Assembly: GCF_001180185.1 (NCBI RefSeq)
Contig: NZ_CVSS01000044.1
Span: 18,540-82,539, forward strand
Length of the DNA: 64,000 bases
Direction of reading: 5' to 3'
From: Candidatus Pelagibacter communis
Lineage (GTDB): Bacteria; Pseudomonadota; Alphaproteobacteria; Pelagibacterales; Pelagibacteraceae
Within the stretch, counting starts at the first letter, position 1; each line of letters begins with the position of its first letter. This document shows positions 40,411-64,000 of this stretch, piece after piece. Both the position numbers and the translations under genes were made by a program. The notes under the pieces were generated by a model. That model did not search any database and was not told the DNA's origin. It was given only the letters and a program-made list of their open reading frames with translations.

Positions 40411-41391
40411 TTATTTTTTAGTATTTCTTAGGATTTTTAAAATTTTTTCAAGATCATCTGGCAAATTTGCAGTGAAAATCATTTTTTTGTTTGTTTTTGG
40501 ATGAGTAAATCCTAAAGTTTTAGCATGTAAAAATTGTCTCTTCAAATTATTAAGAAGTGTTTTTAAGTTTTCATCAATAATCTTAATTTTTTTGAATTTT
40601 TTTTTATACGTATCATCTCCAACTATGCTATTTCCTAAATAGTTCATATGAACTCTAATTTGATGAGTTCTACCTGTTTCCAATTTACATTCTAAGAAAC
40701 TTAAAGTGGGAGTATTATCATTCTCAAAAACCTCTAAAGTTTTATAGTTTGTAATAGCTTTTTTACCTTTAATATTACTTACCTCCATCATCTGGCGATT
40801 TTTTGTGCTTCTTTTTATCAAAGTTTCAATTTTTCCATTTGAAGGTCTTAATTTACCCCAAGTGAGTAATTGGTAAGTTCTTAAAATTGTATGTTTATTA
40901 AATTGTTTAGATAAGTGTTCATGTGTAAAATTATTTTTAGCTATAACAACCAAGCCTGAAGTATTTTTGTCGATTCTGTGCACTATACCTGGACGAAGTT
41001 CATCACCAATGTTTGATAATGATTCTTTATCATAATTGACTAAAGCATTAACAATTGTGTTATCATAATTTCCAGCACCAGGATGCATTATTATTCCTGG
41101 TGGTTTATTAATTATTAATAAATCATTATCTTCATAGATGATATTAAGTTCATATTTAAAAGGTTTTAACGATGCCTTTTTTGGTTCTGGAATTATTAAT
41201 TCAACAAGATCATTTTTATTAATCTTTTTTGATGGATTAATGTTTTTGACGTTATTTATTTTTAATTTTTCACTTAAAATTAGGTTTTTAATTCTAGTTC
41301 GGCTAATTTCTTGATGAAATTTATTTATAAAAGCATCTACTCTTTTATTATGATCCTCTTGATTTACCACTAAACTTATTTTCTTTTCCAT
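40411..41391 (-). CDS. rluD: RluD-family 23S rRNA pseudouridine synthase
   Basis: The 326-residue protein has an N-terminal S4 RNA-binding domain (KRVDAFINKFHQEISRTRIKNLI). The catalytic domain has LLIINKPPGIIMHPG and the active-site loop GIVHRIDKNTSGLVVIAK with the aspartate of HRID. ETGRTHQIRVHMNYLG follows. It modifies helix 69 of 23S rRNA in homologues. The last 63 bases of this window repeat its 3' coding end in inverted orientation. Confidence 0.93.
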   Translation of the reverse strand: MEKKISLVVNQEDHNKRVDAFINKFHQEISRTRIKNLILSEKLKINNVKNINPSKKINKNDLVELIIPEPKKASLKPFKYELNIIYEDNDLLIINKPPGIIMHPGAGNYDNTIVNALVNYDKESLSNIGDELRPGIVHRIDKNTSGLVVIAKNNFTHEHLSKQFNKHTILRTYQLLTWGKLRPSNGKIETLIKRSTKNRQMMEVSNIKGKKAITNYKTLEVFENDNTPTLSFLECKLETGRTHQIRVHMNYLGNSIVGDDTYKKKFKKIKIIDENLKTLLNNLKRQFLHAKTLGFTHPKTNKKMIFTANLPDDLEKILKILRNTKK

Positions 41392-62727: not shown

Positions 62728-63969
62728 ATGATAAAATTAAAATCTTACTTAATATCAATTTTAATCTTTTTAAGTATCTCTGTCAGCTCGTATTCAAAAG
62801 GTGTTCCAGAGTCCTTTGCAGATTTAGCAGAAAAATTGATGCCGTCTGTAGTAAATATTTCTACTACTCAGACAGTAGTTACAAATTCAAATCCATTTCC
62901 TTTTCAATTTCCACCTGGTTCGCCTTTTGGAGATATGTTTAAAGAATTTGGAACACCACAAGAGAGAAAATCATCGGCATTAGGATCTGGATTTATAATC
63001 GATGAAAAAGGCATAGTTGTAACAAATAATCATGTTATCCAGGATGCAGAAGATATAATTGTTAAAGTGAATGGGGATAAGGAATATAAAGCAACAGTAG
63101 TTGGGTCTGACCCATTGTCAGATATTGCTGTCCTGCAACTAGACACTAAAGAAAAATTTATACCAGTTAAATTTGGGGACTCAGATGAAGCTAGAATAGG
63201 TGACTGGGTAATTGCAATTGGAAATCCTTTTGGATTAGGAGGAACAGTCACTTCAGGAATAATTTCCGCAAGAAATAGATCTATTGGTCTCTCTAGATAT
63301 GAAGATTACATACAAACTGATGCATCAATAAATTCTGGAAACTCTGGAGGACCATTGTTTGACATGAGAGGTGATGTGATTGGAATAAATACTGCAATTC
63401 TTGGAAGAAGCGGTTCTATAGGAATTGGATTCTCTATTCCTTCTAATAGCGCTAAAATTGTTATTGATCAATTAATCGAATTTGGAGAAACTAAAAGAGG
63501 ATGGTTAGGTGTAAGAATTCAAGATGTCACCAAAGAAATTGCGGATATAGAAAATTTAGATGAACCGAGGGGAGCACTAGTTGCCAGCGTTGCTGAAAAC
63601 AGCCCATCAGATAAAGCTGGAGTTAAAGCTGGAGACATTATTCTAGAATTTAATGGAGAAAAAATAAACCAAATGAAAGAATTACCAATTATAGTTGCCC
63701 GAACTGAAGTTGGTAAGAAAGTTGATGTAAAAATTTGGAGAAACAAAAAAGAGATTATAAAAAAGATTACATTAGGCAGATTAGAAACTTCAGAAGATTT
63801 TAAAGTTTCAGAAAAAAGTCAAACAGATGAAAATAGAATTGATAAATTAAAAATAACAGTTAGAAAATTAAATAATGAGGATATAAGACAAAGAAATTTG
63901 CCTAATCAAACTAGAGGATTAGTAATTACAAATATTGAAAATGATTTTCACTGCAAATTTGCCAGATGA
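62728..63969 (+). CDS. degP: Do-type (DegP/HtrA) periplasmic serine protease, 3' end replaced by a chimeric join
   Basis: The protein has a signal peptide (1-24) and the catalytic triad H102 (NNHVIQ), D132 (SDIAVLQ) and S206 (GNSGGPL). A first PDZ domain has WLGVRIQDVTKE and AGVKAGDIILEFNG. The second PDZ starts near 372 and stops after about residue 406. From 63938 on, the DNA is an exact inverted copy of rluD, so the last seven residues and the stop are artefactual or fused. True Do proteases are longer (about 460-500). It degrades misfolded envelope proteins. Confidence 0.9.
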   Translation: MIKLKSYLISILIFLSISVSSYSKGVPESFADLAEKLMPSVVNISTTQTVVTNSNPFPFQFPPGSPFGDMFKEFGTPQERKSSALGSGFIIDEKGIVVTNNHVIQDAEDIIVKVNGDKEYKATVVGSDPLSDIAVLQLDTKEKFIPVKFGDSDEARIGDWVIAIGNPFGLGGTVTSGIISARNRSIGLSRYEDYIQTDASINSGNSGGPLFDMRGDVIGINTAILGRSGSIGIGFSIPSNSAKIVIDQLIEFGETKRGWLGVRIQDVTKEIADIENLDEPRGALVASVAENSPSDKAGVKAGDIILEFNGEKINQMKELPIIVARTEVGKKVDVKIWRNKKEIIKKITLGRLETSEDFKVSEKSQTDENRIDKLKITVRKLNNEDIRQRNLPNQTRGLVITNIENDFHCKFAR

Positions 63970-64000
63970 TCTTGAAAAAATTTTAAAAATCCTAAGAAAT
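63938..64000. repeat. 63-base exact inverted copy of the rluD 3' end
   Basis: These bases are the reverse complement of 40423-40485. In the frame starting at 63941 they encode MIFTANLPDDLEKILKILRN, identical to the RluD C-terminus. The copy runs to the window edge. The join to the protease gene falls in a shared AAAATGATT-like stretch. Confidence 0.95.

Follow-up and report, generated by a model that had tools for sequence, protein, structure and literature searches.

The 63-bp tail that closes the window (the whole 64,000-nucleotide stretch of DNA analysed, contig C44 positions 18540-82539) is very probably an artefact rather than a real feature. There is strong reason to regard the tail as a chimera of multiple-displacement amplification (MDA) that the assembler kept at a contig end, which would make its origin technical and not biological. 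The final base of the window is also the final base of C44 (82539). Gene calls at contig ends in such assemblies can be chimeric, and this warning is the main value of the case. Annotation here would give a housekeeping protease as a truncated protein of 413 residues carrying a false tail.

The chimeric stub at the C44 terminus (63938-64000, plus strand) reproduces 40423-40485 (minus strand) in inverted orientation, identical at 63/63 positions, and a search of the window finds one other copy only. The opposite-orientation match claimed in the preliminary description is thus confirmed. Suffixes of 65, 70 and 80 bases taken from the window end have no second copy within the window. All 39 inverted 25-mer pairs in the window lie inside this one match, and the window contains neither direct repeats nor other inverted repeats of at least 25 bp. 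The source of the copy is the 3' end of a pseudouridine synthase gene of the rluD type (40411-41391, minus strand), which is intact in the window as an open frame of 326 residues. Its product scores 277.6 bits against the NCBIfam RluA family model TIGR00005 (cut-off 192.7) and falls below the cut-off of the specific RluD equivalog model. The same description spoke of an inverted copy of rluD; the inverted copying stands, but the copied part is only the last ~63 bp of an rluD-type gene.

On the other side of the join lies a Do-family (DegP/DegQ-type) serine protease, the true part of which spans residues 1-406 (62728-63945, plus strand), with residues 29-406 scoring 445.6 bits against NCBIfam TIGR02037 (cut-off 416.2). 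As had been proposed from the sequence, the protease is cut and a false tail is added: the join sits after codon 406, and the tail (63946-63969, plus strand) contributes seven residues, FHCKFAR, and a stop codon at 63967-63969. The short AAAATG-type stretch said to be common to both sides proves to be the 8-bp microhomology AAAATGAT (63938-63945), which the two genes have in common where they meet. Two distant segments of one genome are joined in inverted orientation across an 8-bp complementary overlap, a short overlap being common, though not universal, in MDA chimeras. The joined segments are 23.5 kb apart, beyond the ~10 kb that is typical, though not defining, of an MDA chimera.

The missing part of the protease is present elsewhere in the same assembly. 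Contig C16 closes with 63 bases (C16:22150-22212, minus strand) that overlap window positions 63883-63945 (plus strand) exactly, in inverted orientation. C16 extends the protease frame by 61 residues, to 467 in total, and then encodes miaA (Pfam IPPT), followed by genes that we take to be ilvB, ilvN and ilvC. The C16-encoded part supplies the rest of a PDZ domain, with a PDZ_2 score of 22.0 bits that falls below the gathering score of 27; the complete protease of one relative carries two PDZ_2 stretches. Because the protease has this normal continuation on C16, there is no sign of anything biological being broken. This organism most likely has a complete protease, and the best explanation is a chromosome in which the protease gene is ordinary and miaA comes next.

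The geometry of the overlaps describes the join more closely. The 118 bp of the false piece (63883-64000) equal 2 x 63 - 8, or two 63-base overlaps that share 8 bp. Exact 63-bp overlaps also occur between the starts of C16 and C51 and between the ends of C39 and C51, so that one fixed overlap length is found on both sides of the piece and between other contigs. Such geometry is what an edge of a de Bruijn graph with k of ~63 would leave, suggesting that the assembler's k was about 63. A limited literature search found no paper naming the assembler used for this genome. The assembly (62 contigs, 1.009 Mb, 76.73% completeness) looks untrimmed, since exact 63-bp end overlaps are kept and contigs go down to 503 bp. 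Fixed-length overlaps of this kind reveal neighbouring contigs; exact 63-bp end overlaps chain the end of C44, C16 (reversed), C51 and C39 (reversed) over ~290 kb. Contig C8 is exactly 100000 bases long, for which either chance or a processing cut may apply.

The C44 end is one of many. There are 56 readable contig ends, on 28 contigs, the other 34 of the 62 contigs having been excluded for N at both sampled ends. Whole-genome searches covered 51 of these ends (the C44 end, 49 further ends and the C62 end), with 40 of 107-156 first-look candidates scored in each search for the C44 end and the 49 ends. The remaining five (the starts of C1, C6 and C16 and the ends of C16 and C51) were compared with a limited sequence set, and each overlaps the end region of another contig by at least 63 bp. 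At 17 of the 56 ends, 16 besides that of C44, the terminus duplicates a stretch from the interior of a contig: the ends of C1, C7, C13, C19, C44, C54, C56 and C62 and the starts of C13, C21, C22, C37, C39, C40 (from its third base), C46, C52 and C59. The copied stretch lies on the same contig for nine of them (C13 end, C37 start, C39 start, C44 end, C46 start, C52 start, C56 end, C59 start and C62 end), at distances of 0.3 to 23.5 kb (under 10 kb in 7/9), and all nine copies are inverted. Three more (the ends of C1 and C54 and the start of C21), oriented through contig overlaps, are inverted too, bringing the total to 12/12 orientable copies.

The lengths of these copies vary. The exact run measures 63 bp at the C1 end, C13 start, C39 start and C44 end, and 42-61 bp at twelve other ends, the latter being read as tips that failed to reconnect. 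The C62 end copy was seen only as 94% identity over 62 bp. The C13 start is unusual in that its copy extends to base 156 with a one-base shift. The end of C19 copies C22:1763-1822 and the start of C22 copies C19:4606-4682, where mismatches follow the exact run; the two contigs look like neighbours with a chimera on either side of a single unassembled gap. Among the relatives described below, a terminal repeat of at least 20 bp within the locus was found at 0 of 41 contig ends (36 loci), a weak control in that the loci are at most ~11 kb long and the pipelines behind some of them may trim ends; the counterpart here is 7/56 ends whose copied stretch lies on the same contig less than 10 kb away. 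An amplified assembly left untrimmed can be recognised simply by its terminal inverted copies of ~42-63 bp.

The uniform orientation bears on a rival origin of the chimera, in library preparation or in assembly alone (a wrong graph edge) instead of in MDA. This alternative is consistent with the k = 63 graph-edge geometry of the stub, and it gains from the scarcity of clean microhomology at joins whose true continuation is identified. It is nevertheless improbable: ligation or random graph errors should yield both orientations, whereas inversion is seen in all 12 terminal copies that can be oriented, in line with the preference reported for MDA (PMC1855051). In MDA of a single E. coli cell, 406/475 chimeras were inverted, and 337 of those 406 spanned under 10 kb (PMC1855051). 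Five of the 17 terminal copies (C7 end, C13 start, C19 end, C22 start and C40 start) have no assignable orientation, which counts against the MDA reading, as does the fact that the copies are not all 63 bp long.

Microhomology is less uniform than orientation. Among 200,000 random inverted joins in the window, at least 8 bp were shared in 125 (0.06%, P = 0.0006) and at least 5 bp in 1.3%. The 8-bp overlap at the protease join is near the peak at 7 nt reported for MDA chimeras in a human data set, where over 95% of overlaps measured 3-13 nt and most chimera segments lay within 5 kb of each other (PMC5372508). A clean overlap of exact runs was found in 2 of the 6 joins with an identified true continuation (8 bp at the C44 end, 5 bp at the C1 end); the exact runs at the C54 end show no overlap, and 2, 6 and 9 bases separate the runs at the C37 start, C13 end and C21 start, respectively. 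This low share is a further point against the fit to MDA, together with the 23.5-kb span, since 69 of the 406 inverted E. coli chimeras exceeded 10 kb (PMC1855051). Above that distance inverted and direct chimeras were nearly equal in number (69 versus 58), and complementary bases accompanied only 34.8% of the inverted ones (PMC1855051).

The favoured sequence of events begins with MDA, the probable source of the join, most likely acting on the DNA of one SAR11 cell. Having just copied the protease as far as AAAATGAT, a displaced 3' end would re-prime on the 8 complementary bases of the rluD-type gene and copy that gene in the opposite direction. Only a minority of reads would then contain the join. 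An assembler working on a de Bruijn graph at k of ~63 would retain the link as a 118-bp edge between a protease 63-mer and an rluD-type 63-mer; at the resulting fork, C44 would be closed with the chimeric edge and the true continuation placed in C16. The overlap geometry of this edge is directly visible in the contigs, while the assembler and the amplification behind it are inferred.

Comparison with other SAR11 genomes at this locus, the check put forward in the preliminary description, agrees with an ordinary protease gene. The relatives were the best 80 of 453 loci, with record titles that name Pelagibacteraceae, Pelagibacterales or Candidatus Pelagibacter; identity across the best-matching protease segment is 79-89%. 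Many bear AG-, AH- or SAG-MED names, taken as those of single-cell genomes, although a good part of these are titled MAG. In all 80 the protease alignment passes residue 406 by at least 9 residues, and miaA directly follows the protease in 74. The contig stops in the remaining six, inside the protease in five (residues 415-457) and 61 bp past it in one. The join between the protease and the rluD-type gene was found in 0 of these 80 fetched loci. The missing 82-residue protease end is present in 48 of 61 genomes, own included, within open frames of 465-531 residues in 47 relatives; the other 13 gave no match at E 0.001, and several of these are incomplete assemblies. In one relative (G033) the protease and the rluD-type gene are both whole on one contig, ~24 kb apart and oriented to each other as they are in the window.

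The 118-bp piece was also compared with 300 genomes of the genus, own included. Some match was found in 161, and most of those listed either reach no further than the join or start no earlier. The join is absent from all checked matches among those listed for the 300 genomes, with two candidates scored per genome; this absence holds for the matches covered and not for the genus in full. Stretches crossing the join position were fetched from G069, G014, G087, G056, G228, G277 and G269, along with one from G284 that ends at the join. In tblastn searches (E 1e-3), those of G277 and G284 proved to be the ordinary protease and that of G069 the ordinary rluD-type gene; neither protein was detected in the stretches of G014, G056, G228, G087 and G269, which are taken as A+T-rich background. 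Nineteen listed matches have the form 42-78, of which only that of G014 was fetched. The G014 stretch matches 19/19 of these genomes at their match sites, indicating one conserved, unrelated site.

Contig ends in the relatives are themselves unevenly placed. Across the 80 loci (L130-L209), 12 contigs end within 1030 bp after the join site versus 9 in the next 3970 bp, an excess with a post hoc binomial probability of 0.0007. The ~1 kb from protease codon 406 into miaA is also the lowest run of G+C, at 0.25-0.27 in three 400-bp bins, with 0.267-0.372 elsewhere (39 full-length loci). Low coverage is a plausible cause of contig ends in this ~1-kb low-G+C stretch.

A real chromosomal inverted duplication or inversion breakpoint that truncates the protease is extremely unlikely; the preliminary description had allowed for a real inverted duplication. 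The join is present in the assembled sequence, and its clean 8-bp microhomology could also arise by template switching in vivo. A real rearrangement should leave the assembly lacking the unrearranged junction, yet C16 carries it, together with the protease remainder and the conserved miaA neighbour. The intact open frame of the rluD-type gene, the terminal copies at 16 other contig ends and the failure to find the join in the relatives checked all argue in the same direction. Equally hard to credit is a cell, or one replicating chromosome arm, that carried a real 8-bp template-switch product beside the unrearranged copy. A biological inverted repeat or mobile element was rejected, as the window has no other repeat of at least 25 bp and none of the relatives checked showed the join. 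The artefact of MDA or assembly favoured in the preliminary description draws its support from the 63-bp overlap with C16, the 17/56 terminal copies, the 12/12 inverted orientations and the relatives without the join.

Two known systems offer a comparison for the MDA chimera proposed here. A published single-cell pipeline trimmed 100 bp off every contig end and kept only contigs >2000 bp, its methods passage giving no reason for the end trimming (PMC5519541). The tail resembles the contig-end artefacts of short-read single-cell assemblies in that extra bases occur at contig ends only, here as a 118-bp edge; unlike the output of that pipeline, the present assembly is apparently untrimmed, with contigs as short as 503 bp. 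The closer parallel is with the inverted MDA chimeras of Lasken and Stockwell (2007, PMC1855051). The protease join differs from these in that its 23.5 kb exceeds the typical distance and in being known from an assembly, not from reads. It shares with them an inverted segment, a short complementary overlap and the loss of the intervening segment from the joined product.
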